Under the pieces are notes generated by a model that worked only from the letters and a program-made list of their open reading frames with translations, had not been told where the DNA came from and did no database searches. Below are positions 5,089 through 62,099 of a stretch of 64,000 nucleotides of DNA, piece by piece (positions within the stretch are counted from its first letter, which is position 1; the number at the start of each line of letters is the position of its first letter). The position numbers and the translations under genes were made by a program. Source of the DNA: Odontesthes bonariensis (taxonomy: Eukaryota; Chordata; Actinopteri; Atheriniformes; Atherinopsidae); NCBI RefSeq assembly GCF_027942865.1, contig NC_134508.1, positions 37,755,466 through 37,819,465 of the forward strand. The letters run 5' to 3'.

Positions 5089-5690
5089 CTACCACGGCCT
5101 CCAGAGAGCCTCAGTGCCTGGACTCTTCTCTTTGGTGAGGCTGGTCTGGACTGTGGAGCTCAGAGGAGAGAAGTCAGACTCTTTTAGGTTTGTATCAGGT
5201 GAAGACTGCAGCTGGTTGAAGTGGTTCAGCAGTTTTTTCTGCTGTTGGTTCTGCTGCTGCAGTTGTCTGAGGATGCAAACGGTCATCTCCAGGATGTCTG
5301 CTTTCTCCAGCTTGGACTCTGGCTGCTGTTTGAGGAACTCTGGACCCAGGAGAGACTTGAGCTGCTCGATGTGGCTGTTGATTCTCTCTCTACGTAACTT
5401 CTCCACCAGCGGCTTTCTGAGCTGCAGAGACAAGTAAATAGCTATTAATTAACTTGTTCAAGAGTGCACGTTTGCATGGACAAGGGCATTATATGGGTTA
5501 AAAGCAGAGGACAAATTTTGTGTGTATGCATGTATGCATGACAATAAATCTGATCTTAATCTGAATCTTAATCTTAATCTTAATTATTTGCACTATACAA
5601 CTGTGTCTCCATGAATTTTCAGTTTACCTTGTGGTCCAAAGCAAGATGCTCCTGAGAGCTGGTCATAGCTGGAGTGATTGTGGGTGCCAT
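5089..5690 (-). CDS. her4: her4-like copy 1: bHLH-WRPW repressor lacking part of Orange (131 aa)
   Basis: Hes5/her4-type Notch effector. Exon 1 is 5690-5628 (21 codons, start MAPTITPAMTSSQEH) and exon 2 is 5421-5089, with a phase-0 intron of 206 bases (AAG|GTAAAC, CTGCAG|CTC). Residues 22-78 are the bHLH. The basic helix LRKPLVEKLRRERINSHIEQ has the proline typical of Hes proteins, and helix 2 begins SKLEKADILEMTV. The C-terminus is WRPW, which in this family recruits Groucho/TLE. Compared with copy 6 it lacks 30 residues between helix 2 and the LLNHF segment, an exact in-frame loss of 90 bases that removes the front half of the Orange domain. It should bind DNA and Groucho but may choose partners differently. 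Confidence 0.85.
5555..5590. repeat. Short TTAATC-type simple repeat in intron 1 of copy 1
   Basis: Four imperfect units of six bases (cttaat, cttaatct) lie in the intron. This partly explains why this intron is about 90 bases longer than those of the other copies. Confidence 0.7.
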
Positions 5691-5754
5691 GTTTGGATCT
5701 CTGTGCTGTAGAGGTCTCAGTGAGAGAGGATCTGATCTCTTCTGCTTCCATTCC

Positions 5755-5960
5755 TCCCATTTATAGTCCCACATCTCCATTGAATGTGTGGGTCTTGGTT
5801 TAGCTGGAGTTTCCCACAGTCTGAGCCAATCACAGAGCTCTATGAGACAATAAAGATTGTAGGACAGCAGCATGCTATCATTATTGCCTGGGGGATAATG
5901 ACTGGGTCTCAGGGGAGCAGATGGAGCAGACACACAAAGCTCTATGTGACTCTGGGAAAA
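5755..5960 (-). promoter_or_regulatory. Promoter of copy 1
   Basis: On the minus strand a CTATAAATG TATA box lies at about 5767-5759. A CCAAT motif on the plus strand is at 5826-5830, and a perfect CSL/Su(H) site TGTGGGAA is at 5818-5811. A further TGGGAAAA occurs near 5953. This set of elements recurs at every intact copy, which supports direct Notch input to the core promoter. Confidence 0.7.
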
Positions 5961-6244
5961 CGGTGACCCTGCAGAGAAAGCTTATCTAAGGCCTGATGCT
6001 GAGATCAATGACTTTGACTGAGCACACGCCCATCATTACAGCACACACGTGAGACATGATCATTTATTATGTCTTTTACACATGGAATGAAAATTTGAAT
6101 GCAGACAAAGTGGGACCATTTTACGTGTGTGTAGTGCTTATTGAGCCCAAACCTAAAATATAACATACATCTATAAAATGTTTCTGATTGATGTTTACTT
6201 TCATACAACTTTTTAAACTTGGTGTCCAAATGCTGTTGAGTATT

Positions 6245-6424
6245 TTGGCACGTGCCCTGTTCTGTGTGTGAGTAATGAGCACATCTCTGTTTCCCACACT
6301 GACTCCCAGTGTAGTGATCAATAAGCCACAAAGAGACTTCTGTGACAGATGCTGGCCGTGTGTTGTTAGAGAAACAGAGCCTTGCATCATCAGCCATCTG
6401 GAGGGAAAGTATCCCATTGGCTGG
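6245..6424 (-). promoter_or_regulatory. Block A of copy 1: GGCACGTGCC plus paired CSL site
   Basis: A GGCACGTGCC box at 6247-6256 is the preferred E-box of E(spl)/Hes proteins. It is followed at 6267-6298 by TGTGAGTA, 16 bases, then TTCCCACA. This is the head-to-head geometry of Su(H) paired sites, on which two Notch-CSL-Mastermind complexes dimerise. The block ends with CATCTGGAGGGAAA and ATTGGCTGG. It lies about 0.6 kb upstream of the start codon. Confidence 0.75.
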
Positions 6425-6585
6425 TTCAGAGTTAGTAAAATCTTAATGTATGGGGAAATGTGTGTTAATTAATGACTTGACATATCATATTTCCAGTTAT
6501 GAATGCAGTCCTAAAGATGGTCCACTCATAATTCTCACTTGATAATGAATCAAAATTTGAGCTATGGGAGCGAGAGGGTTCCTTG

Positions 6586-6650
6586 CAGGCAGTAGTTTCC
6601 ATAAGTGTGCCAAATCCCTTTGGAGAATTAGTTACATGGTGGCTGTCCTT
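6586..6650. promoter_or_regulatory. Block B of copy 1, no CACGTG
   Basis: Recognised by AAGTGTGCCAAATCCC followed by TGGAGAATTAGTT. The E-box CAGCTG found in other B blocks is changed to CAGTAG here. It lies about 0.3 kb beyond block A. Confidence 0.5.
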
Positions 6651-6659
6651 TCTAGATTT

Positions 6660-7738: not shown

Positions 7739-9312
7739 GAAAATATGATTAAATCAACTGAAACTGATTTCCATACCAGCGTAATGGTGCATCAGTAACT
7801 GTCTCTGATCTATATAAGTTCACCTGGTGCAATGACATGAAGCAATCAAGTAACATGAGATTTATTAACCCTCTTAATCCATTATAGAGTTTTGCTCTAA
7901 ACACCTCAATTATGGTTCAATTTTGGTTATGTGTGTTTAAGGCAGGGACAATAATAGGGACAAGAGAGAAATTGACTAAAAATGAACTACATTTGTCTTT
8001 CACCATAATAAAGAAGGTAATGAAAACATACACAAAAGAAAGTACATTTTAGCTGGCTGTGTTTGTTTATTCAACAAGGCACAATGGTTCTCCAAATGAC
8101 ATGATAATACATCACAACAGCAACTTGTAAATATCTTCAAGACACAGTTTACTCAAAGAGAGCAAAGGAACAGCATCTTTATGAAAGACAAACACTGTAC
8201 AGTGTTTAAAGACAGCACTCACTGTCCTTTAATGGAGTAAAGAAATATATTGATCTTAAAACAGATCATATCATTCGTCATAACCACTAAATTTAGTAGA
8301 TTCTCAAAAGGTAAATGTGAAATTGTTGCAGTAAAACTGTGACAAACTCACATTAAACAAACCTTTTACACTGAAAGATTAAACATACAGATCTTCAAAA
8401 TTGATCATATTTCAGTAATCCCACAATGCAAGGTATATTTTGACAAAATATCCAAAGAAAAGTTTTCTAAATTACTTGATCAAAATAATCTATGTTAATC
8501 AAAAGATACGTATCACCATCGCACCATGTTTCACTTACAGTGAAGCATAAAAGTAATTATACTTACAAACAGTAATAACAAGAAGCATACCTTTAAGAAT
8601 TAAAGTATAAGTGTTTGTATCTTAGAACAGATCACAGTTAATCACTCAAAGTATAATGGGAAAGTTTGACCATAAAAGAGACATTTGTGTTTTTGATCAC
8701 AAATTAGAGCCCCACAATATTAGGAAACCATGTAATATACAAGATTTTTGAATGAGTATTTCAATTATGACATGACATGCAATTTACTTCAATAAAGGGT
8801 AATGATCTTAGGTGTATCAACGAGTGTTGCATTCTGTTTCTACACCTGTGCATGCTGGTAAGTTGTAGTTACACCAAAGCTGAACTCTGGTTGAAGGTCC
8901 TCATTGATACTCCTGTGTTTGTCCTGTCTCAAGTCAAAATGCCTTTTACATTGTCTTTGTGTTATTTTGCATGCTGATGCTGCAATAACGATACATTTTC
9001 AATATATTGTGCAGCTCTCAACACAATGATAACTAACCATCAAAGATGATAAATGTTGCCATAGCATTATTAGTACTTAAAGTACAACAAAAAATAATTG
9101 CTAATGCAATCAGATTAGGTTCATGCAACATGCATGTTAAAAGATTTTCTTTCTTAACATGAAAGATATTGTTGTGGGGAAAATAATCACAAAATAAACC
9201 TTCTGTTCAAACAGAATACTTAATAGAAAATGAACAGAGAATTAATTCCAGTAATCTTTGACCAATATGATCTTCTCACTTTGTCTTTCTTCTCACTTCA
9301 GTCTCTAGGGTC

Positions 9313-9800
9313 AACCATGGCCTTCAGAGAGCACTGTTGTCTGGAATCTTCTCTTTGGTGATACTGATCAGGACTGAGGAGCTCAGAGGAGAGAAGTCAG
9401 CCTCTCTCAGGTAGAGTGCATCTTGTTGAAGAGGTCCAGCAGTCTTCTCTGGGACTGTGTGTTCACATCATCCTTTGACAGGAAGTGCACCATCTCTTGG
9501 ACATAAATGGAGTTCTGCTCAAAAGCCCTTGTTGTTTGAGGAACTCTGGACCCAGGAGAGATTTAAGCTCCTCAATGCTGCTGTTGATTCGCTCTCTGCG
9601 TAACTTCTCCACCAGCGGCTTTCTGAGCTGCAGAAACAACAACAAAGTCATTAATAAACTTATTCTAGAGTTGAGTGTTGATATCAACAAGAACCAACTA
9701 TTGTGATCAAAAATAGGATTTTCTCACTATTCATATTTACCTTGTGGTTCAGAGTCAGATGCTCCTGAGAGTCTGTCATTGATGCAGTGATTGGTTGGAT
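9313..9800 (-). pseudogene. her4: her4-like copy 2, pseudogene
   Basis: Exon 1 (9779-9741) keeps the MTDSQEHLTLNHK end, but the first ATG is lost to a deletion of about 11 bases. Exon 2 begins normally at 9627 and reads well through the basic helix and helix 1 to KQQ. A deletion then removes all of helix 2, and the frame shifts. The Orange region and the LLDLF segment can still be traced, so unlike copies 1 and 4 this copy descended from an Orange-containing gene. The WRPW codons are mutated. The promoter keeps a TATA box near 9850, and a poly(A) signal remains at 8066-8071. Confidence 0.85.
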
Positions 9801-10410
9801 CTCTGTGCTGTAGAGAATCTGATCTCTGCTGGCTTCATCCTTCATATTTATAGTCCCGCATCTCCATATGAATGTGTGGGTCTTGGTTTGGCTGGAGTTT
9901 CCCACACTCTTAGCCAATCGTTGTGCTCTGCAAGACAATAGGGCATGTGAGGCTGCAGCCCACTGCCATTATTGCCTGGAGGATAATTGTTAGGTTTTGA
10001 GGAGCAGGTGGAGCACACTCTAAGAGGTCTAAGTGAATCTGGGAAAGTGGTGACCCTGCAGATACAGCTGAAGTGCTACCTGACGCTGAGGTCAATTACT
10101 TTTACTGACCACATGCTAATCATCCCAACACACATGTGGGAAACAACATTTAGAGCTTTATGATATGATATGGATTTTGCATACAGAATGAAATATTAAA
10201 TGTAGATATTTTAAACATTTATGTAGTCTTGTGTGATTTTCATAAAGGAAGAAATTGGTAGGTTTTCTAAAATGGAAGTAAATTTATTTTCAATCAAAAG
10301 CTTACAGTTCTGTGAAATTGTGTTGTAGGATGGGAAAGTGTGTTCCCCGTTAATCTAATTTAAATGACCCCACACAAAGACGTTGATGTCTGGATGCAGA
10401 CATGTCTGCT

Positions 10411-10588
10411 GGCACGTGCCGTGTAGTCAGTGTGAGTAATAGGTTAATCAGAGTTTCCCACACTGACTCCCCGTGCTGTAGTCAATGAAGAACAAAGGGA
10501 TTTCTGAGACAGATGCTGGCTAAGTGTTCTTACAGAAACTGATTATAACATCACGTGCCATCTGGAGGGAAAGGATCCCATTGGCTGG
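10411..10588 (-). promoter_or_regulatory. Block A of copy 2
   Basis: GGCACGTGCC at 10411-10420 is followed by TGTGAGTA, 16 bases, TTCCCACA at 10431-10462. The paired site is as good as those of living copies although its gene is dead, so it may have been kept to serve neighbouring genes. Confidence 0.75.
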
Positions 10589-10760
10589 CCCTGAAAGACT
10601 GTAACTTCTGAAAGTATGGTGAAAAACATACTTTAATTTACAATCAAATTTATTTATAACATCCTATTTTTAGTTTGTAGAGATTTCCATAGACAGTATT
10701 TAATCTTTAATTATTGATTATCATCAGGACACTTCAGCTCAGAATGTGAGTTATCGTAGG

Positions 10761-10830
10761 TCACAGTTTTATGAAGTTTGCCAGATCGCTGTGGAGAATT
10801 AGTTGGCTGCTGGTGGAGTGGTTGTAATCC
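10761..10830. promoter_or_regulatory. Block B of copy 2, degraded
   Basis: Recognised by GAAGTTTGCCAGAT and GGAGAATTAGTTGGCTGCTGGTGG. The CACGTG form and the CAGCTG box are both absent. Confidence 0.45.
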
Positions 10831-11556
10831 AGTTCCAATGTATGCTCATATTCGTTCATTTGGCAGAGATTAAACTTGTGTCGCTATGCATGCACTTTTT
10901 ATCTCTTTGGCATAAGCAGAGTTTCATCCATACAATACATACATGATATTCTAGTTCCACAATGTTATCCATTAAGGACATTCAGGGCATGTAGATATTG
11001 GATATCACCCTTTCAGCCAAAATTGTGTCAACTCATTTATATTATCTATTTTTGGGACTATAGTTATATTGTCTTCTTTTGACAGTACAGAATATAATCA
11101 ATATAGTTGATAAAAAAAAAGAATGAAGATGAGGAGTGTACTGTTGCTTGAGGTAGTTTTTCCATACTGATAGTTCTTGATTTCTCTACACGTCTTTAAG
11201 GCCTACATTAAACACATAGTGGTCTTATACTGTATATAAGTTTTTTCATGTTGAACATCTCTTCATGTGAAGTGTGTGGAGTAATTTTCTGTTTTAGCTG
11301 CGTCCTTTTAAAAGCACAAAGTTCAAAGTTGCGCATTATTTTTTGTCAAGTTATAAATCCATAAATCTATATAAATCTATAAAATGTAAAAAAAAAATAG
11401 AATAAGAATTATTCAGCTATGATTGAAATAGTTAAATGTTATTTTTCAATTGTTGAAGTGTCAGCTGCTTCTAGATAAATTCACATCATCCTAAAAAAGT
11501 GATGATCGTGCCTTGAACAGTTTCAACCTATGGCATGACTGGAAACAGGTCCGTCC

Positions 11557-11705
11557 TTCAGGTCAGAAGTCTGGATCTATTGTGCCTCAGCAGCTCTGTG
11601 ATTGAGTTTGACCTGGTTTCCCACACTCTGTCCTTTCACTGCTTTCACTAAAAAAGCAATATAATTGTGCTTAATTGTGTCATACCATTATTAACCTCCT
11701 TTCAT
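11557..11705. promoter_or_regulatory. Block C of copy 2
   Basis: It starts TTCAGGTCAGAAGTCTGG and keeps a perfect CSL site in GGTTTCCCACACTCTG near 11618-11625. The later ATAATTGTGCTTAATT part is weaker than in other copies. Confidence 0.55.
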
Positions 11706-12832
11706 TGAAAACGTTTGTTGACCCATGTCACCGTGCTTTGTTTTAATCTCAAAAGTAGGTTTCTAAAAATTTACTGAACAACTGAATAATTATTTTCTCA
11801 GTCAAATATAGGAAAATCTATTTACCTTTTGAAAGTAAAGCAAAAAAGGGACATCTATGATCTATAAATATAAAGAACACGATCAAAACATAACAAGACA
11901 ATGTTTCAGCTCTCTGTTTTCGTTTATTAAAAAAAGGAACAAAGCGCCACATGAGCTGTGAAAGCTCCAATTAGTGATGATGATACATCACAACAGCAAC
12001 TTGTAGATTTCTACAAGACACAGTGTACTCATAGAGAGTAAAGGAACAGTGTCTTTATAAAAGACAAACAACTTTTACCATGTGAGGACATAATTTACTG
12101 TCCTTTCAGATTTTTCCAACTGGTGTAAAACTGTTACGGATCATAAACAGATCACATCCTTCTTAACTACTAAATTATTTTGAATCTGAAAAGGAAAATG
12201 TAGTCAGAATCAAACAAGCCTATTGATCTTTAAACAGATCATCTTTCAGTAATCACACAGAGATTATTACAAAGTATCTTCAGAAAAAGAAGAATTAAAA
12301 GATTGGATCAAAATGATCAATGCTAATCATAAGGTGGTAAATATCACATGTTCACTGTGTTTAATCCACAGCGAAGCATCTAATTAAGAAATCTGTCATA
12401 TCAAACAAACTTTTTAGAATAAAAGGATACACATTTGGATTCTTGTTCAGATCAGCTTTGAGAAGTCAAAGAGATTAGATATCCATCCATTATGACAATT
12501 TGCCAATAAAAGTAACATGTACATTTTTTCATAACAATGACCAATTGCAATTAAAGCATAACAACTGTTACTATAATGTTACTAGTAATTGTAGTACGGT
12601 GAGAAAAAGTAATAACTGCAGCTGCAATTAGATCTTCTACAAGATGTTTTCTTTCTTAAAATGAAAGATATTTGCTGCCGACATTTCTACAGGAAATGTT
12701 ATCTCAGAAAATCATTTAAGCCTTTTGTAAAAAACAGAAGAACAGTCCATAAAAACTCTTTTGTATTCAGACAAGTAATCTTTGACCAATGTGGTCTTCT
12801 CAGTTTGTCCAATGTCTTCAGTCTGTAGCTGT

Positions 12833-13332
12833 CTACCATTGCCTCCAGGGGGTGCTGTTGACCATAGTCTTGTTTTCAGCAATGCTGGTCTGGACTATGA
12901 AGCCCAGTGGTGAGAAGTCGCATAGTGGTTGTCAGAGACAGAATGGAGCTTGGTGTGGTGGTTCAGCAGTGTTCTTTGTCGTTTGTTTTACTGCAGCAGT
13001 CATCTTGGAAAACAAACTGTCATCTCCAGGATGTCTGCCTTCTCCATCTCCATGTGTGGTTGCTGTTTGAGAATTTCTGCACCCAGAAGAAACCTGAGCT
13101 ACCCAGTGTTGCTATTGATTCACTTTCTGAGTATATTCTCCACCAGAGGCTTTCTGAGCTGCAGAAACAAGAGCTAAGTTATTAATAAACTTGTTCAGGA
13201 GTGCAGTGTAGGTTTAAAAAAGCAAACTGTTTTGAATGATTACTGACCCTACACAAATCTCATATTTACCTTGTGGTTCAGAGTCAGATGCTGCTGAGAG
13301 TTGGTCATTGCTGCAGTGATTGTAGGTGCCTT
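12833..13332 (-). pseudogene. her4: her4-like copy 3, pseudogene
   Basis: The start codon in exon 1 has become AAG (13332-13330), although the rest of that exon is intact to its GTAAAT donor. Exon 2 opens at 13158 as LRKPLVEN, then a small deletion and a stop follow within the basic region. The C-terminal motif reads WRQW instead of WRPW. The helix-2 to C-terminus spacing shows that it belonged to the short, Orange-reduced form like copies 1 and 4. A TATA box (near 13398) and a poly(A) signal (11923-11928) persist. Confidence 0.85.
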
Positions 13333-13993
13333 GGTTGGATCTCTGTGCTGTAGAGGTCTCTGTAGAGAATCTGATCTCTGCTGGCTTCATCCCTTCTATT
13401 TATAGTTCTACATCTCCATATGAATGTGTGGGTCTTGGTTTGCTGGAGTTTTCTCACAGTTTGAGCTAATCATGAGCAATTGTGAGATGATAAGAGCATG
13501 CTGCCACTTATTCTTGGGAATGATGGTTAGATCTCAGGGGAACAGGTGGAGAGCTGGAGGAGATAAAGAGAGACTCACAGAGCTCTGTGTGAATCTGGGA
13601 AAGTGGTGACCCTGCAGAGGGAGCAGATTTTCAGCTTGATGCTGGCATCCTTGTGTCTACTTGAGCATGCACTCATCATCCCATCTTACGTGTGAAAGAG
13701 TGTAATTTATTATGTAGAGTATGAGTTCAGTATAGGAGGAAATGATTAGGTGTACTAAATTGGAAGTGTATTTTAATTTGTGTGTGCTTATACATAGTAA
13801 AAATCCAAAATGTAACAGGAAGCAGTATTCCATTCAAAACTGATGGTTTATTGAGATGTTTAACCATAAACCTTTACACTATATTTGCTCAACAAAAACA
13901 CTCTGTGTAAAACTGTGCTGTTGATTGAAAGTGTAGTAGTCCTTATTATTTATGAAGAGTTTTTTTTTTCTTCTGGAAGCAGACATGTCTGCT

Positions 13994-14170
13994 GGCACGT
14001 GCCATGTCCTCAGTGTGAGTAGCGGGTTGATCAGAGTTTCCCACACTTGCTCCCCGTGCTGTGGTCAGTGAAGCACAAAGGGCCTCCGAGACAGATGCTG
14101 ACCATGTGTTGTTATAGAAACAGAGCATTACATCACTAGCCATCTGGAGGGAAAGGATCCCATTGGCTGG
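13994..14170 (-). promoter_or_regulatory. Block A of copy 3
   Basis: GGCACGTGCC lies at 13994-14003 and the paired CSL site at 14014-14045, again with exactly 16 bases between TGTGAGTA and TTCCCACA. The gene it belonged to is a pseudogene. Confidence 0.75.
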
Positions 14171-14360
14171 CTCTGAAAGACTGTATCATTTGAAAGTATA
14201 GTGAAAAACATCCCATATTTCACAATCAAAATGATTCATCTTATCCTATTCCTCATTTGTATTTATTTTCATAGATTTTAGTGGTCAGTAATCAGCTCTG
14301 ATTATTGATCATCTGGACATTTCAGCCTTAAGAGTGAAAGTGTTCTAGTTTCCTTGGTTA

Positions 14361-14430
14361 GGTAGCAGTTTCATGAAGTGTGCCAATTCCCTTTTGAGAA
14401 CAACTCAGCTGCTGTTGCAGTGGTTGTTAT
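14361..14430. promoter_or_regulatory. Block B of copy 3
   Basis: It contains GAAGTGTGCCAATTCCC, with a CAGCTG E-box displaced to the right side (near 14406) rather than to the left. Confidence 0.45.
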
Positions 14431-14912: not shown

Positions 14913-15089
14913 CAATTAAATACATAACAAAAGAAAATAAATGATAATGCTATGATTGAGGGATGGCTGGTGTTCAATAGACTGACATAAACCGAGAAAG
15001 CGTTGATAGCGATTGTGATAGTTATAATCTAACAGTTTAATCTAGTTTCATGATTTCAAACGAGTTTTAAAAGACCGGCTCCCCTTTGA

Positions 15090-15190
15090 CCTCTGTTCTT
15101 TCAGGGTATTGGGCCTGGATTTGTGGATTGGTTCCCATGCTCTGGCCTTTCACTTCTTTCATTGGAAGAACATTGTGATCCAACATCATT
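15090..15190. promoter_or_regulatory. Block C of copy 3, strongly degraded
   Basis: Recognisable from TTTCAGGGTATTGGGCCTGG and the position just before the poly(A) site of copy 4. The CSL core is lost (GGTTCCCATGC). Confidence 0.4.
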
Positions 15191-15439: not shown

Positions 15440-16379
15440 AGATCAAAAAGGAACAAAGCGCGACATGAGCTGTGAAAGCTCCAATTAGTGGTGAAAATAC
15501 ATCACAACAACAACTTGTAGATTTCTACAAGACAACAGTGTACTCAGAGAGAGTAAAGGAACAGTGTCTTTATAAAAGACAAACAACTTTTACCAAATGA
15601 GAACAGAACTCACTGTCCTTTAACATTTTTCCAACCTAATGAAGAAAATAAACTGTTACGTCTGACCTTAAAACAGATCACATCCTTCTTAACGACTAAA
15701 TTAATTTGATTCTGAAAATGAAAATGTAGTCAGAATCAAACAAACATATTGATCTTTAAACAGATCATCTTTCAGTAATCACACAGAGATTATTACAAAA
15801 TATCTTTAAAAAAAAAGATAATTTAAGATATTGGATCAAAATGATCAGGGTTAATCATGAGGTAGTAAATATCACATGAGAACTATGTTCAACCCACAGC
15901 GAAGTATCAAATACAAAGAAAACTGTGACATTAAACAACCCTTTCAGACTGAAAGGATAAACATTTTGATCTTAGAACAGACCAGTTTTGAGCAATCAGA
16001 AAGATTAAATGGAGCTAAAGTCCATTGTGACAATTTGTCCATAAAAGGAACATTTACATTGTTGACCACAGTGATCAATAACAATTCAAAGGCAACAAAT
16101 GCTACCACAGAATTACCATACTACAAGTACAGTGAACATAACTAATTGCTGATGCAATCAAATTTGCTTCATGCAATATGTATGACATGATATGTTCTTT
16201 CTTAATATGAAAGATATTGATGCTGTCTTTTCTCCAGGAAATGGCATCTTTGAAAATTACTAAAACCTTCTGTACAAACAGAAGAACAAGTATGTACATA
16301 TTCGTAGAATTCAGTTCAGTACTTTTTGACCAATATGGTCTTCTCAGTTTGTCTGGTCATAACATCAGTCTGTAGGTGT

Positions 16380-16887
16380 CTACCACGGCCTCCAAAGAGC
16401 GCTGGTGAACAGGCTCTTGTCTTTGCTGATGCTGGTCTGGACTGTGGAGCTCAGAGGAGAGAAGTCGGCCTCTCTTAAGTTGTCCTCAGAAAAAGACTTT
16501 GGCTTGTTGAGGTGGGTCAGCAGTTTTTCCTGCTGTTTGTTCTGCTGGAGCAGCTGTGTCAGGAAGCAAACTGTCTTCTGCAGGATGTCTGCTTTCTCCA
16601 GCTTGGACTCTGGCTGCTGTTTGAGGAACTCTGGACCCAGGAGAGACTTGAGCTGCTCAATGCTGCTGTTGATTCGCTCTCTGCGTAATTTCTCCACCTG
16701 AGGCTTTCTGAGCTGCAGAAACAACAACAAAAATCATTAATTTACTTATTCAGGAATGTCTTCTTAGTAACAACAAATGCATTCTTTACATTTTTGATTA
16801 ACTTGTCATGAATCTCATATTTACCTTGTGGTTCAGAGTCAGATGCTCCTGAGAGTCGGTCATTGCTGCAGTGATTGTAGGTGCCAT
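16380..16887 (-). CDS. her4: her4-like copy 4: divergent, Orange-reduced (131 aa)
   Basis: Exon 1 is 16887-16825 and exon 2 is 16712-16380, with a 112-base intron. The frame is open from MAPTIT to WRPW. Like copy 1 it lacks the 30 residues that include GYSSCVQ of the Orange domain. It has unusual changes at conserved places: the basic region reads LRKPQVEKLRRERI (Q for L), and helix 2 reads ADILQKTVCFLTQL where the others have ADILEMTVCFLRRL. It is either an intact but functionally shifted repressor or an early-stage decaying gene. TATA, CCAAT and CSL elements are all present upstream. Confidence 0.8.
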
Positions 16888-16944
16888 GGTTGGCTCTCTG
16901 TGCTGTAGAGGTCTCTGTAGAGAATCTGATCTCTGCTGGCTTTA

Positions 16945-17175
16945 TCCCTCCTATTTATAGTCCCACATTTCCATATGAATGTGTGGGTCTTGGTCTTCTT
17001 GATGTTTCCCACACTCTGAGCCAATCAGGCAGCTTGACAAGACAATGGGGCATGTGAGGCAGCAACATGCTGTCGTTAAAGCCTGGGGGATAATTCATAG
17101 ATTTCAGAGGAGCAGGTGGGACAGACTGACAAAGCTCTGTTTGATTGTGGGAGAGTGGTGACCTTGAGAGCTAAT
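16945..17175 (-). promoter_or_regulatory. Promoter of copy 4
   Basis: A CTATAAATAG TATA box (minus strand) lies at 16960-16951. The CSL site TGTGGGAA is at 17013-17006, within GTGTGGGAAAC, and CCAATC lies just beyond near 17021. Confidence 0.7.
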
Positions 17176-17535
17176 ATGCTGCCTGATGCAAAGATCAATG
17201 ACTCTGGTGGAGCATACACTCATCATCCTTGCACAAGTTTATATAACAAATGTGAAAAACATATTTATGATGTAGTGTGATTTACATGCAGACTGAATTA
17301 TGGCGTAAGGACTAAGAGGCATGTTTTGTGTTCAGTTTTTTTTATATCAAATTTAGAATTATAAAAAAATAAATTTGAATTTGGATTTAAAAAAATAGTT
17401 GATACAACTTTTACACATTTCCCAAAATTCAGAAACTCTATGATAAAATAGAGATTTGCCATGAGTACTCTATTATAGTACAGTGAGTACTCAAGATATT
17501 AATGATGCTGATGTCCAGATGCAGTTGAGTTTTTT

Positions 17536-17757
17536 GGCACGTGCCTCGTTGTCGGTCTGGAGCATAATTATCATCTTTGACACGTGCCTTGTAGTCAGTG
17601 TGAGTAACAAGTTGGTCTCTGTTTCCCACACCGACTCCCTGTGCTGTGATCAGTCAAGCACAAAGGGACGTCTGTGACAGGTGTTGGCTTTGTGTCTTCA
17701 CACAGGCCATTACATCATCACCAACCATCTGGAGGGAACAGATCCTATTGGCTGGCT
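17536..17757 (-). promoter_or_regulatory. Block A of copy 4, with two CACGTG boxes
   Basis: GGCACGTGCC at 17536-17545 is followed 33 bases later by a second box, GACACGTGCC, at 17579-17588, so this block carries a local duplication of the Hes-type site. The paired CSL site lies at 17599-17630 with the standard 16-base spacer. Confidence 0.75.
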
Positions 17758-17950
17758 CGGAGATTCTGTATCATTTGAAGTTATGTTGAGAAATCTTTCA
17801 TGAAGTAGATCAAAATGACTTGGGATGCCATGTTTTAAAATTGATGTCATTTTCTAACAGTGCTACCCTGCAGTTGTAGTCATAACTGATAACTAACTAC
17901 CAACTAAACTGATATTTTACCTCTGAGAGTAGGATGTTTCCTATGGGGAC

Positions 17951-18015
17951 AGGACAGCAGTTTCCTGAAGTGTGCCTACTCCCTCTGGAGAGTTAGTTGG
18001 CTGCTTGAGTGGATC
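17951..18015. promoter_or_regulatory. Block B of copy 4
   Basis: Recognised by GAAGTGTGCCTACTCCC and GAGAGTTAGTTGGCTGCT. Confidence 0.45.
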
Positions 18016-19300: not shown

Positions 19301-19306
19301 GCCCAC

Positions 19307-45435: not shown

Positions 45436-45496
45436 GGTTGGATCTCTGTGCTGTAGAGGTCTCTGTAGAGAATCTGATCTCTGCTGGCTTCATCCC

Positions 45497-50014: not shown

Positions 50015-50614
50015 CTACCATGGCCTCCAGGGGGCGCTGTTGTCTGGACTCTTCTCTTTGGTGATGCTGGTCTGGACTGTGGAGCTCAGAGGAGAGAAGT
50101 CAGCCTCTCTCCGGTTCTTATCAGAAGAAGACTGCAGCTTGTTGAAGTGGGTCAGCAGTCTTCTCTGGGACTGTGTCTCCTCATCCTCCTTTGACAGGAA
50201 GTGACTCATCTGTTGGACACAGCTGGAGTAGCCCTGATCAACAGCTGCTGAGTGCACAGCTTGATGCTGCAGCTGCAGTCGTCTCAGGAAGCAAACGGTC
50301 ATCTCCAGGATGTCTGCTTTCTCCAGCTTGGAGTCTGACTGCTGTTTGAAGAACTCTGAACCCAGGAGAGACTTGAGCTGCTCAATGCTGCTGTTGATTC
50401 GCTCTCTGCGTAACTTCTCCACCAGCGGCTTTCTGAGCTGCAGAAACAACAATAAAGTCATTAATAAACATATTCAGCAGGGTAGTGTTGGTGTCAATAA
50501 AAAACAATCTATCAATATTGATGACTGACTCTTCATGAATCTCATATTTACCTTGTGGTTCAGAGTCAGATGCTGCTGAGAGTTGGTCATTGCTGCAGTG
50601 ATTGTAGGTGCCAT
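50015..50614 (-). CDS. her4: her4-like copy 11: full-length repressor (161 aa)
   Basis: Exon 1 is 50614-50552, exon 2 is 50437-50015, and the intron is 114 bases. Intact frame. Changes against copy 6 are P48S in the loop (shared with copy 8) and Q77L in the glutamine run after helix 2 (LQLQHQ). The rest, including Orange and WRPW, is the same. Confidence 0.88.
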
Positions 50615-50675
50615 GGTTGGATCTCTGTGCTGTAGAGGTCTCTGTAGAGAATCTGATCTCTGCTGGCTTCATCCC

Positions 50676-50905
50676 TCCTACTTATAGTCCCACATCTCCA
50701 TATGAATGCGTGGGTCTTGGTCTGGTTGAAGTTTCCCACAGTCTTAACCAATCAGAGCGCAGAGCAAGAGAGAATAGAAGTCTGTCCTGCCACATGTTCA
50801 GTGGTCATACTAGTAAAGGACAATAGTTAGATCTGAGGGGAACAGGTGGAGGACTGGGGGGAGATAAAGAGAACTCACTGAGATCTGTGGGAAACTGGAG
50901 AAGTG
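50676..50905 (-). promoter_or_regulatory. Promoter of copy 11
   Basis: The TATA box is at 50688-50680, the CSL site TGTGGGAA at 50740-50733 and the plus-strand CCAATC near 50749. A plus-strand TGTGGGAA is near 50886. Confidence 0.7.
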
Positions 50906-51471
50906 ACGACTCTGTAGAGAGAGACGATCTGCTGCGTGATGCTGAATCACTCTCACTGAACACACGCCATTCAACACGTGTGAGAATAAAAATGGATCTT
51001 ACATCTGATAAAATCAACAGTATCAAGCAGGAGTTAAGACTTATATTTTATTTTTGCTAGAATGCGTCATTTGAACCACAATTTAAATAAAGTACCTTTT
51101 GAACTCATTGATTTTAGTTTTCATTTCGAAAAACTTTAAATTTTAACTCTCATGCCAATTAAAACATTTTTCATGAAAGATATTTGGCCCACATTCGTTC
51201 TGTTACCAATATACTTACATAGAAGGTGGAACCAGTTTCTCACAATAGTTCCCAGATATCTCTGGTCATTGAACCAAAACTGGACTTCAGTGGATCTTTT
51301 GTGAATGAGTTTTAGATATTTTATAAACATATTCTGATAAAAAGAAACATGAAAGGAAGAAAACACATTTGTATAGTTTGGAAATGTTCTTCTGATGAGG
51401 TGACATATGACCATCCAATCCAAACTGTATGTGTGAACCAGAAACTGACTCTAAACTCCAGCTGCATATGT

Positions 51472-51603
51472 GAGGGAGGGAGGATGAGGCAGCTGCTTTT
51501 TGGCACGTGCCAAATCCCTGTAGAGAAAAGTCGACTGCTGGTGGGGTTGATGGTGCTAATAGGACTAAACTCTGATCTCAAAAGCATTCCCACACTCTGT
51601 CCA
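51472..51603. promoter_or_regulatory. Block B with perfect palindrome, upstream of copy 11
   Basis: GGCACGTGCC lies at 51502-51511, with the CAGCTG box to its left and GCATTCCCACACTCTG to its right. Confidence 0.7.
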
Positions 51604-52121
51604 TTAAATGTCATTAAGACACGTTTCTACAGCCAGATGGATAATTTGAGATTATTACTTTAATACATAAAGGCTACAAGTTTCTTTGTTTTTGCAGTTT
51701 ACACCTTATCAAAGAAAACTGTATGTAATGACAACGAGCCAAAATAAGCTGTCACTGAAACGTTTGGACAAACTTATAGTGTAACTACAGATTAAACTCT
51801 ATGCTTTATGACTATATGTGATACCTGGTTGGAGTCTTAGCTGTGCTGCATCATTATTTAACATTTTCTCTTTCTTAGTATTCAGTTTTAAGGAATTTTA
51901 ACAGGAATCTTGAAGTGTCAATGATATCAACCAGCTTAATGTGACACCTAATGAATAATAAGTTTGCATTTTACATTTTATATTTCTGAAAAACCTTCAG
52001 TAAGGAAAAAAAAAACTTAGCATGATTTCTATCATTTGAAATATGAGCTTAAATCTGGGAATTGACCAAAGTCTGGATTTTTCACTGTGATCTTTAGGCT
52101 CACTGTTAACATGCTTCTCTT

Positions 52122-52250
52122 CAGGTCAAAGGTCTGGATCTATTGTCCCACAGCGGCTCTGAGAATGAGCTTCCTCTGCTTTCCCACACTCCTTTTCATT
52201 GTTTTCACAATAGAAGTGTGCCTCATTATACATCATAGTGTCATGCCTCT
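52122..52250. promoter_or_regulatory. Block C upstream of copy 11
   Basis: Intact TTTCCCACACTCC core. The left half reads GAGAATGAGC instead of GAGAGTGAGC. Confidence 0.6.
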
Positions 52251-52714
52251 TTAAAGAGAGAAATGTTTTTAATTTTAATTTTCATTTACAAACAGCCACA
52301 AATTGAGGCTGCTCATGATATCATGTGGCATCAAAAATGATTATAAGTTCTCTGAATCTGATTGATTTCATTCATACAGAGTGCCGTGCAATCAATTAAA
52401 CCCCTTTATGAAACATACTGATGGACGTGCCCAACGTTTGCAGTGCTTAGGTAAGTTATCGCTACACAGTTAGATTCTGTGATAAGTTTGACAATCGTCA
52501 CTTTTTTTCAAACACTGGAGGAATTAATTGAGAGGATAAGGGATCTCATTCTGAGATAAATTACAAAGGCTCACAACTCCATCACACATTTGAAATTCAG
52601 CATTCTGACTTTAAACTTTTCCAGGATTGATGTGCAGAGGTTTAAAGATCTGCTCAACATGAAGCATATCTTTGATAAGTTGGCTCAAATTTCCCATGCC
52701 CCTTCAAGTGAGAA

Positions 52715-52845
52715 GGGAGGTTAAAGCAGCTGTTTCATCAAGTGTGCCAGCCCCTTCTGGACAATAGTCGGGTGCTGGTGCTTTTTAAAATGCAAATGAA
52801 CTTGAACTGTGACTCTCTTCTTCAGAACTTTCTCACACTCTTTCT
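52715..52845. promoter_or_regulatory. Second block B upstream of copy 11
   Basis: CAGCTG, AAGTGTGCCAGCC and TTTCTCACACTC, with no CACGTG. Confidence 0.55.
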
Positions 52846-55506: not shown

Positions 55507-56106
55507 CTACCACGGCCTCCAGGGGGCGCTGTTGTCTGGACTCTTCTCTTTGGTGATGCTGGTCTGGACTGTGGAGCTCAGAGGAGAGAAGTCAGCCTCT
55601 CTCCGGTTCTTATCAGAAGAAGACTGCAGCTTGTTGAAGTGGGTCAGCAGTCTTCTCTGGGACTGTGTCTCCTCATCCTCCTTTGACAGGAAGTGACTCA
55701 TCTGTTGGACACAGCTGGAGTAGCCCTGATCAACAGCTGCTGAGTGCACAGCTTGATGCTGCTGCTGCAGCCGTCTCAGGAAGCAAACGGTCATCTCCAG
55801 GATGTCTGCTTTCTCCAGCTTGGAGTCTGACTGCTGTTTGAAGAACTCTGGACCCAGGAGAGACTTGAGCTGCTCAATGCTGCTGTTGATTCGCTCTCTG
55901 CGTAACTTCTCCACCAGCGGCTTTCTGAGCTGCAGAAACAACAACAAAGTCATTAATAAACATATTCAGCAGGGTAGTGTTGGTGTCAATAAAAAACAAT
56001 CTATCAATATTGATGACTGACTCTTCATGAATCTCATATTTACCTTGTGGTTCAGAGTCAGATGCTGCTGAGAGTTGGTCATTGCTGCAGTGATTGTAGG
56101 TGCCAT
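55507..56106 (-). CDS. her4: her4-like copy 12: full-length repressor (161 aa)
   Basis: Exon 1 is 56106-56044 and exon 2 is 55929-55507. The protein is identical to that of copy 6. It is the last complete gene of the window. The upstream region shows TATA at 56180-56171 and a CSL site at 56232-56225. A palindromic block B (56989) follows, and 2 kb upstream there is a real block A (58197), which copies 9-11 do not have. Copy 12 may therefore respond to Notch more strongly than its young siblings. Confidence 0.9.
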
Positions 56107-56164
56107 GGTTGGATCTCTGTGCTGTAGAGGTCTCTGTAGAGAATCTGATCTCTGCTGGCTTCAT

Positions 56165-56400
56165 CCCTCCTACTTATAGTCCCACATCTCCATATGAATG
56201 CGTGGGTCTTGGTCTCATTGAAGTTTCCCACAGTTTTAACCAATCAGAGCGCAGAGCAAGAGAGAATAGAAGTCTGTCCTGCCACATGTTCAGTGGTCAT
56301 ACTAGTAAAGGACAATAGTTAGATCTCAGGGGAACAGGTGGAGGACTGGGGTGAGATAAAGAGAACTCACTGAGATCTGTGGGAAACTGGAGAAGTGACG
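56165..56400 (-). promoter_or_regulatory. Promoter of copy 12
   Basis: TATA ACTATAAGTA is at 56180-56171, CSL TGTGGGAA at 56232-56225 and CCAATC near 56241. A second CSL site on the plus strand is at 56378-56385. Confidence 0.7.
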
Positions 56401-56960
56401 ACTCTGTAGAGAGAGACGATCTGCTGCCTGATGCTGAATCACTCTCACTGAACACACGCCATTCAACACGTGTGAGAATAAAAATGGATCTTACATCTGA
56501 TAAAATCAACAGTATAAAAGCAGGAGTTAAGACTGATATTTTATATTTAATAGAATGTGTCATTTGAACCACAATAAAGTACCTTTTAAACTCATTGATT
56601 TGAGTTTTCATTTTGAAAATGTTAGATTTTAACTCTCATGCCAATTAAAACATTCTTTATTAAAGATATTTGGCCCACATTCGTTCTGTTACTAACATGC
56701 TGACATAGAAGGTGGAACCAGTTTCTCACAATAGCTCCCAGATATCTCTGGTCATTGAACCAAAACTGGACTTCAGTGGATCTTTTGTGAATGAGTTTTA
56801 GATATTTTATAAACATATTCTGATAAAAAGAAACATGAAAGGAAGAAAACACCATTTGTATAGTTTGGAAATGTTCTTCTGATGAGGTGACATATGACCA
56901 TCCAATCCAAACTGTATGTTTGAACCAGAAACTGACTCTAAACTCCAGCTGCATATGTGA

Positions 56961-57090
56961 GGGAGGGAGGATGAGGCAGCTGCTTTTTGGCACGTGCCAA
57001 ATCCCTGTAGAGAAAAGTCGACTGCTGGTGGGGTTGATGGTGCTGATAGGACTAAACTCTGATCTCAAAAGCATTCCCACACTCTGTCCA
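56961..57090. promoter_or_regulatory. Block B with perfect palindrome, upstream of copy 12
   Basis: GGCACGTGCC lies at 56989-56998 within the same 16-base palindrome. CAGCTG precedes it and GCATTCCCACACTCTG follows. Confidence 0.7.
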
Positions 57091-57627
57091 TTTAATGTTA
57101 TTGAGATACGTTTCTACAGCCAGATGGATATTTTGAGATTATTACTTTAATACATAAAGGCTACAAGTTTCTTTGTTTTTGCAGTTTACACCTTATCAAA
57201 GAAAACTGTATGTAATGACAACGAGCCAAAATAAGCTGTCACTGAAACGTTTGGACAAACTTATAGTGTAACTACAGATTAAACTCTATGCTTTATGACT
57301 ATATGTGATACCTGGTTGGAGTCTTAGCTGTGCTGCATCAATATTTAACATTTTCTCTTTCTTAGTGTTCAGTTTCAAGGAATTTTAGCAGGAATCTTGA
57401 AGTGTCAATGATATCAACCAGCTTAATGTGACACCTAATGAATAATATGTTTGCAAATTTTACATTTCTGAAAAAACTTTTTCAAGGAACTTCCAAGTCC
57501 TGCACAATTCTCAGACAATAAGCAAACAGCTTAACATGAATCCTATCACTTGAAATAAATAAATGTATGAATTGACCAAAGTCTGTGTTTCATTGTGAAT
57601 TTCAGGCTCACTGTTAACATGCTTCTC

Positions 57628-57770
57628 TTCGGGTCAAAGGTCTGGATCTATTGTCCCACAGCGGCTCTGAGAGTGAGGTTCCTCTGCTTTCCCACACTCT
57701 GCCCTTTCACTGCTTTCACTGGAAGAACAATGGAAGTGTGCATCATTATACATTATGCTGTCATTCCTCT
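57628..57770. promoter_or_regulatory. Block C upstream of copy 12
   Basis: CTTCGGGTCAAAGGTCTGG, then TTTCCCACACTCTGCCC, an older-looking version with the ACTGGAAGAACAAT segment that young units lack. Confidence 0.6.
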
Positions 57771-58139: not shown

Positions 58140-58365
58140 ACACGGTCTTTTTGTCCGGACATAGTGGGTGTGTCCTGTCTTGTGGTTTGTAGTTGCTGTG
58201 AGCAGAAAGTTGCTCTCAGTTTCCCACACTCCTTTGAATGATGTGGTCAGTGCACTACAAAAGGACTTTGAAAGGAGCTTTTGTGACAGACGTTCGTCGT
58301 GTGCTCTGACAGAGACGGAGCCTGACGTCACCACCCATCTGGAGGGATATAACCTTATCGGTTGA
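58140..58365 (-). promoter_or_regulatory. Block A, 2 kb upstream of copy 12
   Basis: TGTGAGCA, 16 bases, TTCCCACA lies at 58197-58228. It is followed by TTTGTGACAGACG, a CRE-like TGACGTCA (near 58323) and CATCTGGAGGGA. No gene relic stands directly next to it. Confidence 0.7.
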
Positions 58366-58494
58366 CTCAAAAGTCTGATCAAATCTTGAAATACACTCAA
58401 ATGTGAGCAATCCCTAATCTCCTTTTATCAATCAAACTGGGCCGGATAAAATTCACACTATCTACGTGTTCAACATTCCAGCTTCATGAAGGGC

Positions 58495-58615
58495 CTGAGA
58501 CAGCTGGTTGTTAAGTGTGCCAAATCCCTCCGGACAACAGTCTGCTGCTGCAGTGGTTAAAGGTGCTAATTACACTCAAATATGACCCATTTCTCAAGAG
58601 CTTTCACACACTTTG
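58495..58615. promoter_or_regulatory. Block B right of the 58.2 kb block A
   Basis: A CAGCTG at 58501-58506 is followed by TAAGTGTGCCAAATCCCTCC and TGCTGCAGTGGTTAAAG. Confidence 0.5.
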
Positions 58616-58694
58616 TCCGTTCACAGAGTGATTAGTGAATACCAAGTTAAAACACGGTTGTCTTTGAATAAGCAGGAGAATTTTTTAATTCAGT

Positions 58695-58788
58695 TTGCAT
58701 GTTCTCCCCGTGTATGCGTGGGTTCTCTCCGGCTTCCTCTCACAGTCCAAAAACATGCATGTTAGGTTAATTGGTGTCTCTAAAAATT
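58695..58788 (+). mobile_element. Fragment of a fish LINE/SINE family
   Basis: GTTTGCATGTTCTCCCCGTG, GGTTCTCTCCGGCTTCCTCT and CAAAAACATGCATGTTAGGT are words of a very common fish repeat related to L2-type elements. It replaces the left part of a block C, whose end (CCCACACTCTGACC, AATATAAGTGTGTCTCC) remains at 58789-58840. Confidence 0.6.
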
Positions 58789-59181
58789 GTCCCACACTCT
58801 GACCTGTCACTGGAGGATCAATATAAGTGTGTCTCCCCTCGGCTGTAAAGTTTTGGCATTCCATTGCCCAAAACCGAGACTTGATCAGAAATTTGTAATA
58901 AGTGCTCTTTGATGCTTAAATAGACATCCCAAAAATATATCCATGAGCAAATTTGAGCAATAACATTAAACCTCTGCATATGAATACCATGACATACAGA
59001 ACGAGAATTGATCACAGTCCATTTTAATGTGCTATTTTGAGATATTGTCTGAAATGATTCTGTTCATTTCAGGAAAACACACTTGTTCTTCATGTCAGAA
59101 TGCTGATGTTGTCATTGAAATATTGAGAGATATTGCATCTCTCAGTTATGTATGTGAGGAATATGCTAAAACAGACATGCT

Positions 59182-60035: not shown

Positions 60036-60368
60036 GATGAATTGAACAGCATCCAAGACACACGGAATGCACATCGCATCCGTCCGTCCAGAAACCCAGG
60101 TGTTCCGGCTGGAATACCGGATATAATGCACCTGGCTCCGCATCTGTGGGGGGCTGAAGATCATCTCTTTCCTCTCGATGAAGCCAATCTGACCGTCTGC
60201 AAGAGGAAATGCACCTTCCTCGACTCCATACCATGCGACATCGATGTATTTGATTTTTGCACAGGCATAATGCAAGAACGAGGGTTACAGTTGACAAACA
60301 GTCCAGACCAAGCACTTGAATTATACATTACATTAAGGGACACTGTTCGTCCCATAATACTTGCTTAG
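60036..60368 (+). pseudogene. Transposase C-terminal exon, relic
   Basis: TTTTTTCCCCAG (acceptor) precedes codons for DELNSIQDTRNAHRIRPSRN, followed by a GIPDIMHLAPHLWG segment and a C-terminal QALELYITLRD. The HRIRPSRN and G-PDIMH words are typical of the C-terminal end of integrase-core (rve-type) proteins encoded by DNA transposons in fish. The exon is open to its stop, but the DDE-bearing exons that should lie before it are gone, so the element cannot move by itself. Confidence 0.6.
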
Positions 60369-60974
60369 GCATACATTCGCCATAGCACAATGCACTTACT
60401 GTTCCATTCCAAGCAACTTCCAAATAGATTAAAAAGGTGAGATGCTCACACTGTAATGGTAACAGATTTCGTGGCCACAATTAATACAACGTGCGAACGT
60501 TTCAAGCAATTTGGATTTATTGTTGCCATACAGAATGTCGTGGGCACGTCTTACAGATCGTGGGCACACTTTTGTTTATTGTGCTCACAAGGTATATAAT
60601 GTGGGCACGACTGAGGGGCAGTGAGCGCACGGTTTTAGTAAGACGAGCGCACGGTTTATGTATACGCGCGCACGCTTTATTTAGACGAGCGCACGATTTA
60701 ATAAAGCGAGGGCACACTTTGAAAAGTGAGAGAACGCTTTCTTGAAACCCCCTGAAAAAGATATTGTTTGATCTCCACCGGGCTCCGTAGAAGAGTGACT
60801 TAAGTGGAGTCAAAAACTGTACTTGTAAATCAAAGTTTAAACATTCTCAGTGCATTGTAATCAGGGTTTTGGTGTAGTCATTTCTTTTTAAATAACAATG
60901 ACTTTGTCACAGAACCAGTGTAACTAAAGTTTTGCTGGAATATATTAAAGCTGAAACTCCTCAAAGTTTTCCTG

Positions 60975-61195
60975 GAGGGCAGATGCAGCAGGTGTGTTCT
61001 TTGTCTTCTGGTTTGTACTGGTGAGCAGAAAGTTGCTCTCAGTTTCCCACACTCAGTCTTTGAATGATGTGGTCAGTTCACTACAAAAGAACTTTGAAAG
61101 GAACTTTTGTGATGGACATTGGTCGTGAACAGAGGCAGAGCCTGACGTCACCAACCATCTGGAGGGAAACCACATGATTGGCTGCCTCAAATGTT
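60975..61195 (-). promoter_or_regulatory. Block A, orphan
   Basis: GGTGAGCA, 16 bases, TTCCCACA lies at 61020-61051, with one base off in the left half. TGACGTCA and CATCTGGAGGGAAACCACATG follow. There is no her4-like gene between this block and the one at 58.2 kb; the transposon occupies the interval. Confidence 0.65.
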
Positions 61196-61354
61196 TGATC
61201 GTATTTAGGACTATAACCATTATCAAAACCTTTGTTAACTATCACACAAGAGTGGCTTCCTCCTCAGTTCGCAGTTGCTGAGGATTTAAATAGTCAGTCA
61301 TCATGAATCCTTTCTTTCTTCAGGTGGTTCGAATTTCATATATATTGTCAAGAA

Positions 61355-61425
61355 GGGGAGGCTGAGGCAGTTCTTTCCAGTGTGCCAAATCCTTCTTTAA
61401 AACATTCAGCTGCTGGGTTTATTTG
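61355..61425. promoter_or_regulatory. Block B right of the orphan block A
   Basis: CAGTGTGCCAAATCCTTC and a CAGCTG placed on the right side, near 61407. Confidence 0.45.
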
Positions 61426-62014
61426 CGATGCAGTTGATGCAAATAAACTTGAACTGGCATTTGCTTCTATAAGTTGGTACATTTCATTGATTTCATTGAT
61501 TCTAGACTAAAGACTTGTCGAGAATTTATTCAGGAACATAGCAATATAATGATGGGCAATTAAGAGTGCGGGTTTAGATTAATCAAACCAGAAAGTTGAT
61601 GACCAGCCCGTATAAGAGTAAAATGGGGATGTTGGAACCGTATACAGAAAATATTCTGTACAAAAATTGTAACTGGCTGTTAATAATTACAAGTGAAGAA
61701 AAGAGTTACAGGACTTTTATGCAGATATAGGGTAATTAATGTATTATTATTGCAATCCATTTGTTACTTACATAGGGCCGCGTTTATTATCCCTCTTTTG
61801 CTCTCGACCATCTTCAGGGAAACTACATGAATGGTCATATAAAACGTCTGATAAAATCTTGAAATACAGTCAAATTACATCAGTCATCACTAATTATACC
61901 ATATCAATTTCAACTTTTCAAGTATTGATGTGCAGAGGGTTTAAAGATCTGCTCAACATGAAAGATTTATTTCATTAGATGGCTCAAATTTCCCGTGCTC
62001 CTTCAAGTGAGAAG

Positions 62015-62085
62015 GGGAGGTTATAGCAGCTGTTTTATCAGGTTTACCAGGTCCTTCTGGACAATAGTCGGGTGCTGGTGTTTTT
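62015..62085. promoter_or_regulatory. Second block B, worn
   Basis: AGCAGCTGTTTTATCAGG and TTCTGGACAATAGTCGGGTG match the second B blocks at 39935, 47515 and 52715. The AGTGTGCC core is lost. Confidence 0.45.
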
Positions 62086-62099
62086 TTAATAAATTTTAT

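Follow-up and report, generated by a model that had tools for sequence, protein, structure and literature searches.

Genes of the her4 type, established targets of Notch in the neural stem cells of fish, hold back nerve-cell formation. The stretch of DNA considered here, a 64,000-nucleotide window of the 945-Mb Odontesthes bonariensis genome (C3:37755466-37819465; the window), contains a tandem array of her4/Hes5-type basic helix-loop-helix (bHLH) genes on the minus strand, together with a recurring set of conserved blocks upstream of them. These blocks, designated A, B, D, and C in the order in which they lie upstream of the genes, form the subject of this article. The gene names used below (her4, her12, her2, and her15) are inferred assignments.

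In fish and frogs, Hes5-type genes are described as clustered; teleosts have two such clusters, and the zebrafish genes have two coding exons (PMC8320183, PMC10112928). The zebrafish her4.1-4.5/her12 and her2/her15 genes are reported to be Notch-dependent (PMC10112928). The proximal promoter of Hes5 is described as carrying a TATA box, a CCAAT box, and two conserved CSL sites (PMC3201213). In mammalian Hes5, a CSL site and a degenerate head-to-head partner with a 16-nt gap have been described as a cryptic sequence-paired site (SPS), 16 being the gap of the Notch complex dimer structure (PMC7685452). The Drosophila Enhancer of split complex (E(spl)-C) comprises clustered bHLH repressor genes, and in some of its control regions proneural sites accompany an inverted pair of CSL sites (PMC2686717), an arrangement referred to as SPS+A.

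The window holds ten gene positions, U1 to U10, of which U5, U6, U8, U9, and U10 have long intact frames; the frames of U1 and U4 are shorter, U2 and U3 are pseudogenes broken by stops, and U7 has its frame interrupted in the basic region. Each flank outside the window has one more intact copy, L0 on the left (plus strand) and U11 on the right. The best reading of the locus, to which a probability of about 0.7 is given, is that the blocks are duplicated enhancer modules, predicted to be Notch-responsive, that were copied with the genes and are in part shared among them. Iterative nhmmer nucleotide-profile searches, each started from a single copy of a block and covering the window with 20 kb on either side (104 kb), returned 13 matches to A (plus a two-piece relic at 19.7 kb), 16 to B (10 full length and 6 truncated), 22 to D, and 20 to C, some of these being short fragments. 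The order A-B-D-C, on the minus strand like the genes, is found in U1, U2, U4, U5, and U6 and in a gene-less set at 25.0-27.9 kb (g5), and is complete in U11, just to the right of the window. U3 retains A-B-D together with a decayed C near 15.08-15.19 kb, which lacks a CSL site and was found by eye, the profile having failed to report it. In seven units the block midpoints lie 155-177 bp (A), 645-848 bp (B), 918-1131 bp (D), and 1473-2469 bp (C) from the ATG. The right-half units U7-U10 have A, a shortened B of about 90 bp, D, and C, and extra D, B, and C pieces are intergenic. Trees of A and of B (U7-U9 excluded) each resolve two old groups, U1-U4 (joined by L0 in the A tree) and U5 onward, and the A-B-D-C set is present in both groups.

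Blocks A and B are further marked, in most copies, by CSL pairs at a constant spacing. Between positions 5050 and 33400, TGTGGGAA occurs 18 times against 1.3 expected, five times each in A, B, and C and three times elsewhere. Twelve of the 25 YGTGRGAA sites in the left half have a reverse partner (at least 6 of 8 positions) at a gap of exactly 16, and the other gaps from 6 to 30 each yield at most three partnered sites (background chance 0.013). With this generic consensus the twelve pairs occupy all seven left-half A blocks and five of the seven left-half B blocks; with partner forms derived from the alignments, head-to-head pairs with the 16-bp gap are present across the cluster in 13/13 A and 7/10 full-length B blocks. 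In the pairs detected with the generic consensus the first site fits the CSL consensus and the partner matches 6-7 of 8 positions, a cryptic form like that of Hes5. The gap of the pairs is constant in length and variable in sequence (12 of 16 columns vary among distinct gaps in A, 11 of 16 in B). If an SPS is taken to be two head-to-head CSL sites with a gap of 15-17, best 16, then A and most full-length B blocks have its spacing and C does not, the partner in C lying at gap 13 in three sites. Block B also has the site content of SPS+A, with CAGATG in all ten full copies alongside the 16-bp pair in seven; TCCCTCCAGATGG with the E-box is invariant in all ten, CCAAT is present in eight, and a Hes-type site, GGCACGTG, in four, those of U1-U4. 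CAGCTG or CACGTG is found in some copies of block D, which has few known motifs. In part of the C copies the CSL site is flanked by ATTGT, ACAATA, and TGCATAATGA, of which we take the first two to be SOX-like and the last to be POU-like.

Block and spacer conservation was compared in eight units (28 pairs) by global alignment against mononucleotide shuffles, C of U3 being placed by eye. Mean identity was 0.70 for A, 0.67 for B, 0.61 for D, and 0.65 for C (shuffled 0.47-0.49), and 0.49, 0.49, and 0.38 for the A-B, B-D, and D-C spacers (shuffled 0.48, 0.47, and 0.38). Values of z above 4 were obtained for all 28 pairs in both A and B, 22 in D, and 24 in C, against 10, 6, and 4 pairs for the same three spacers, a comparison that is partly circular because the blocks were defined by similarity. 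The recent copies U7-U10 provide a more independent test, in which the shortened B (B'), D, and C together vary at 17/263 columns and the spacers at 141/1222 (Fisher p=0.015). This difference arises mostly because D is invariant (0/71, against 7/89 in B' and 10/103 in C), and the support that it gives is modest, weaker than that of the old-unit alignments. The original prediction, made from the letters of the window, had given every left-half unit a promoter, a block A with paired CSL sites, a block B with an E-box and a Hes site, and a block C with a CSL site and a conserved body, and had held that the bodies are conserved beyond their motifs while the spacers are lost. The last point is borne out, most spacers being lost, with the circularity just mentioned, as are the paired CSL sites of A, the E-box of B, and the body of C; the order stands for the units named above once a fourth, overlooked block (D) is placed between B and C. 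The Hes site is far from general in B, which also contains a CSL pair, and TGTGGGAA is missing from C in U1, U3, and g5.

Whole-genome BLAST searches with one copy of each block gave 7 matches for B, 13 for C, and 7 for D, all within this cluster, these counts being lower bounds (the B search gave 7 of the 16 profile matches and the C search missed the C15 elements described below). The B core pattern, with up to three mismatches, gave 11 matches genome-wide, ten in the cluster and the eleventh at the three-mismatch limit, and its reversed control gave 0. A paralogous cluster lies at C15 14.698-14.707 Mb and consists of two tail-to-tail genes with nearly identical second exons and a third gene that is more her4-like (55% vs 45% identity). 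Upstream of the third gene the A profile scored 107.7 bits against 7.9 for the best of 31 null sequences, and the C profile scored 36.7 and 23.4 bits at C15 against 12.8 for the best of 31. The two C elements lie upstream of exon 2 of the two her15-like genes, one at ~2.5 kb and in the orientation of its gene, the other at ~1.2 kb and in the opposite orientation. Because C scores above null at C15, an element of this type was probably present before the two clusters split. At C15, 16-gap CSL pairs are found at positions 19031 (within A), 15436, and 9491, that at 15436 having a TACTCACA partner, and a distal 16-bp pair may likewise predate the split. When the nine full B copies other than that of U11 were locally aligned to C15:14.7020-14.7062 Mb, one (U1, 46 vs 37) exceeded all 40 resampled controls and U3 tied with them (36 vs 36).

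Whether the modules belong to single genes or serve several can be approached from the units in which gene and modules have parted. Modules are retained beside the pseudogenes U2 (A, B, D, C) and U3 (A, B, D), and occur without a gene in g5 (A-B-D-C), at 58.2-58.8 kb (B, D, partial C), and at 61.0-62.1 kb (B, D). In leave-one-out scoring the gene-less B blocks of g5, 58.2 kb, and 61.0 kb (171.9, 177.6, and 167.1 bits) are the top three of ten, the rest scoring 120.8-153.4, a ranking that relatives in the training set may favour; for C, the score is strong in U2 (100.1 bits), is 66.7 in g5, where the CSL site is altered, and falls to 17.3 in U3, where the block is nearly lost. The pattern favours shared enhancers over strictly private cassettes. 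The claim that each gene travels with its set was too strong, given modules beside pseudogenes and without genes and an intact L0 with no detected B, and B is truncated in U7-U10; of the proposed Notch response and feedback cassette, the Notch-type sites are present, and feedback is not a constant property of B because the Hes-type site is found in 4/10 full copies. That each gene nevertheless owns an A-B-C set giving it its own Notch response and Hes feedback is possible and on present evidence doubtful. It would account for the fixed order at a similar distance upstream of U1, U2, U4, U5, U6, and U11 and for the decay of C in the pseudogene unit U3, and it sits poorly with matches to B, D, and C that exceed the number of genes, with their persistence in U2, U3, and U7 or in gene-less sets, with the leading B scores of those sets, and with L0.

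Under the preferred reading of partly shared modules, the old unit would consist of four cis-regulatory modules upstream of the gene in fixed order and orientation. A, at the promoter, and B, mostly with head-to-head CSL pairs at gap 16, would each load a dimer of Notch transcription complexes, and the E-box of B would recruit a proneural activator according to SPS+A logic; Notch response and proneural synergy are thus predicted from site content, as is Hes feedback where Hes-type sites occur. Some copies of D would contribute E-box or Hes-type sites, and most copies of C a single CSL site set in a body with SOX- and POU-like motifs. The modules would have been copied by tandem duplication with the genes and then retained as the spacers drifted to unalignable. 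Because they persist beside broken genes and without genes, it is probable that neighbouring her4 genes share them to some extent as enhancers. A further-reaching proposal, which is tentative, makes the module array itself the selected unit, the B-D-C sets having been amplified and kept with or without a gene as a shared, copy-number-graded Notch-dimer enhancer array for the cluster, with a type-C element older than the split between her4 and her2/her15.

Several observations weigh against the preferred reading, in addition to the circularity of the alignment test. The isolated mammalian Hes5 SPS is reported not to have shown dimer dependence (PMC7685452), so that dimer use at this locus is a prediction. 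The spacing evidence amounts to about two ancestral sites plus those of C15, because the units are related; block B of U11 has no CSL match, and TGTGGGAA is present in 9/13 C instances examined and lost or altered in four (U1, U3, g5, and U7b). At C15, two of 14 CSL sites pair at gap 16 under the generic consensus, equal to gap 18, and the B and D profiles score at the level of the 31 null sequences; with the weak alignments, these scores make B homology there suggestive only, despite the pair at 15436. L0 breaks the order, having A and an inverted nearest C and D, and block B was not detected there in the profile search of the window and its 20-kb flanks. The inversion of C and D relative to L0 suggests an inversion at this edge of the cluster. 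Among the recent copies, C is scarcely less variable than the spacers (10/103 vs 141/1222), and gap rates in blocks and spacers do not differ (p=0.87). Finally, the introns of U2, U3, U4, and U5 resemble one another (64-78%) about as closely as the blocks do, which suggests that the gene body is homogenised or constrained by splicing.

These last points lead to an explanation without selection, in which patchy gene conversion or chance survival after duplication left the conserved islands, these being conversion tracts. The intron and 3' region of U7-U10 are nearly as uniform as exon 2 (3/101, 12/338, and 9/435 variable columns, respectively), and with the alike introns of U2-U5 this indicates that the gene body may be homogenised by conversion; the case for A is weakened more than that for B, D, and C, because A adjoins the gene body and a mostly unalignable spacer separates the others from it. 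The variability of C in recent copies fits such a process as well. Conversion is nonetheless an unlikely source of the blocks as a whole, since the same islands recur in old units with CSL pairs of constant gap and variable gap sequence, C and A recur at the paralogous cluster on another contig, and the U1 intron has diverged (43-45% alike to the others) where its block B has not. Rather less likely still is a different role, for instance in chromatin or boundary function or as transcribed RNAs: the conserved CCAAT/E-box core of B and the scarcity of known motifs in D would be compatible with it, whereas the CSL pairs at dimer spacing point directly to Notch. Rfam gives no family at the gathering threshold in the window, and the RNA-gene reading was rejected. 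Least probable by far is that a family of mobile or simple repeats was inserted beside each gene. Many copies do lie within 64 kb, but the confinement of B, C, and D matches to this cluster (lower bounds, as stated) and of ten of the 11 B core matches makes a dispersed repeat unlikely, the copies at many unrelated loci named in the original prediction as a sign of such a family did not appear in the genome-wide searches, and order and distance from the ATG are fixed.

Table 1. Genes, blocks, and gene-less sets of the her4-like array (window positions)
Feature	Position	Strand
U1 her4-like gene, shortened open frame (119 aa around bHLH exon)	5090..5690	-
U1 block A: promoter, CSL pair with 16-bp gap	5725..6000	-
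U1 block B: CCAAT, CAGATG, CSL pair with 16-bp gap, GGCACGTGCC	6242..6429	-
U1 block D	6587..6637	-
U1 block C, CSL altered to TGTAGGAA	7581..7694	-
U2 her4-like pseudogene, match in pieces with TGA	9300..9790	-
U2 block A	9808..10087	-
U2 block B	10406..10592	-
U2 block D	10763..10816	-
U2 block C, intact CSL	11556..11670	-
U3 her4-like pseudogene, 4 stops in matched stretch	12830..13346	-
U3 block A	13360..13643	-
U3 block B	13989..14175	-
U3 block D	14360..14419	-
U3 decayed block C, CSL site absent, placed by eye	15080..15185	-
U4 her4-like gene, shortened open frame (117 aa around bHLH exon)	16370..16887	-
U4 block A	16915..17189	-
U4 block B	17578..17760	-
U4 block D	17946..18011	-
U4 block C	19304..19408	-
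Relic of lost unit: exon 1 (read by eye) and block A pieces 19661-19713, 19716-19799	19590..19800	-
U5 her4-like gene, intact frame	21667..22266	-
U5 block A	22295..22583	-
U5 block B, CSL-partner gap 21, not 16	23015..23214	-
U5 block D	23366..23428	-
U5 block C	23689..23792	-
g5 (gene-less) block A	25018..25253	-
g5 block B, CSL pair with 16-bp gap	25784..25982	-
g5 block D	26145..26214	-
g5 block C, CSL altered to TGTGGAAA	27751..27853	-
U6 her4-like gene, intact frame	29156..29756	-
U6 block A	29783..30080	-
U6 block B, degenerate pair, 16-bp gap retained	30374..30566	-
U6 block D	30639..30709	-
U6 block C	31172..31287	-
Extra D 32121-32188 and extra C 33042-33144	32121..33144	-
Gene-less extras: truncated B, D, C, C	33832..35832	-
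U7: gene with broken frame, A 37730-38031, truncated B 38309-38397, D 38564-38634, C 39206-39307	37103..39307	-
Gene-less extras: D 39929, truncated B 41566, D 41821, C 43112, C 43462	39929..43565	-
U8: gene, A 45463, truncated B 46037, D 46293, C 46928, D 47511	44836..47586	-
U9: gene, A 50642, truncated B 51220, D 51475, C 52119, D 52706	50015..52781	-
U10: gene, A 56134, truncated B 56706, D 56962, C 57627	55507..57741	-
Set lacking both gene and A: full-length B 58171-58370, D 58485-58555, incomplete C 58790-58831	58171..58831	-
Set lacking both gene and A: full-length B 60998-61190, D 61349-61416, D 62005-62081	60998..62081	-

The features of the window are listed in Table 1. Assignment of the array to the Hes5/her4 type is indicated by a Pfam HLH domain, WRPW ends, and tandem copies on C3, the repressor role being predicted, and a single intron (two coding exons) was read in eight units. 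The Pfam Orange domain gave no match for the her4-like protein or for one C15 protein, and the other C15 protein scored 19.2 bits against a cut-off of 25.3. L0 (C3:37753459-37753893, L009) is an intact her4-like gene in the opposite orientation, 94% like the U5 protein. The gene copy of U7 (37103-37545, minus strand) is broken in the basic region of its exon-2 frame and is otherwise close to its neighbours; the copy could be a true pseudogene, or the break could stem from misassembly. Over block D, six right-half copies (34088, 38564, 41821, 46293, 51475, and 56962) are 100% identical along 75 bp, and four of them belong to U7-U10, where the spacers vary at 141/1222 columns. After block D in several units there is a TTTCCCACACT-type stretch (26262, minus strand, with variants seen by eye near 52830 and 57070), which is perhaps a short, C-like fifth element. 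A fold-back inverted-repeat element, probably a miniature inverted-repeat transposable element (MITE), is present in two copies ~97% alike, at 3223-3885 and at about 24369-24866, the second at the expected site of the missing gene of g5.

Towards the left edge of the cluster, two putative exons at 1420-1832 (minus strand) join to encode a 95-aa protein (MAFYTDLALQDT...), with GTGGGAAA sites seen nearby by eye; it has no Pfam match and gave no BLASTP alignment to the her4-like protein, and it could be a small gene at the cluster edge. Between U10 and U11, GTGCTCTCG-like repeats, also seen by eye, flank short open frames at 59330-60720, and this stretch looks like a mobile element.

Should the modules work as predicted, the locus would show how a Notch response survives repeated gene duplication, each old unit having up to two sites for a Notch dimer plus one or more older distal modules, retained even where the gene is broken. 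It would also offer, at a single locus, a natural series of intact units, the 21-bp gap of U5, the B of U11 without CSL, and gene-less sets, in which SPS spacing and enhancer sharing can be directly tested.

The component parts of this array, namely the paired CSL sites of Hes5, SPS+A, and Hes5-type clusters, are of known kinds. In searches of the open-licence literature on her4, hes5, her15, SPS, and E(spl), judged by titles and the starts of abstracts, no description of an ordered distal module array was found. The zebrafish and frog hes5 cluster work, so far as its accessible text goes, covers genes, synteny, and function and not ordered distal modules, the word 'promoter' occurring 0 times in the main text of PMC8320183. 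The C3 and C15 clusters fit the zebrafish two-cluster pair of her4.1-4.5/her12 and her2/her15.1-15.2. Block A matches the 16-gap pair layout of the mammalian and chick Hes5 proximal promoter; unlike Hes5, as described for its proximal sites, the old units have a second 16-bp pair in B and the modules D and C further upstream. Block B resembles the SPS+A regions of Drosophila E(spl)-C in having a CSL pair and a proneural-type site, and in both systems the genes are clustered. The array described here differs from E(spl)-C in belonging to a vertebrate-type cluster, in its degenerate partner site, in the position of B upstream of the promoter block, and in the single CSL site of C.

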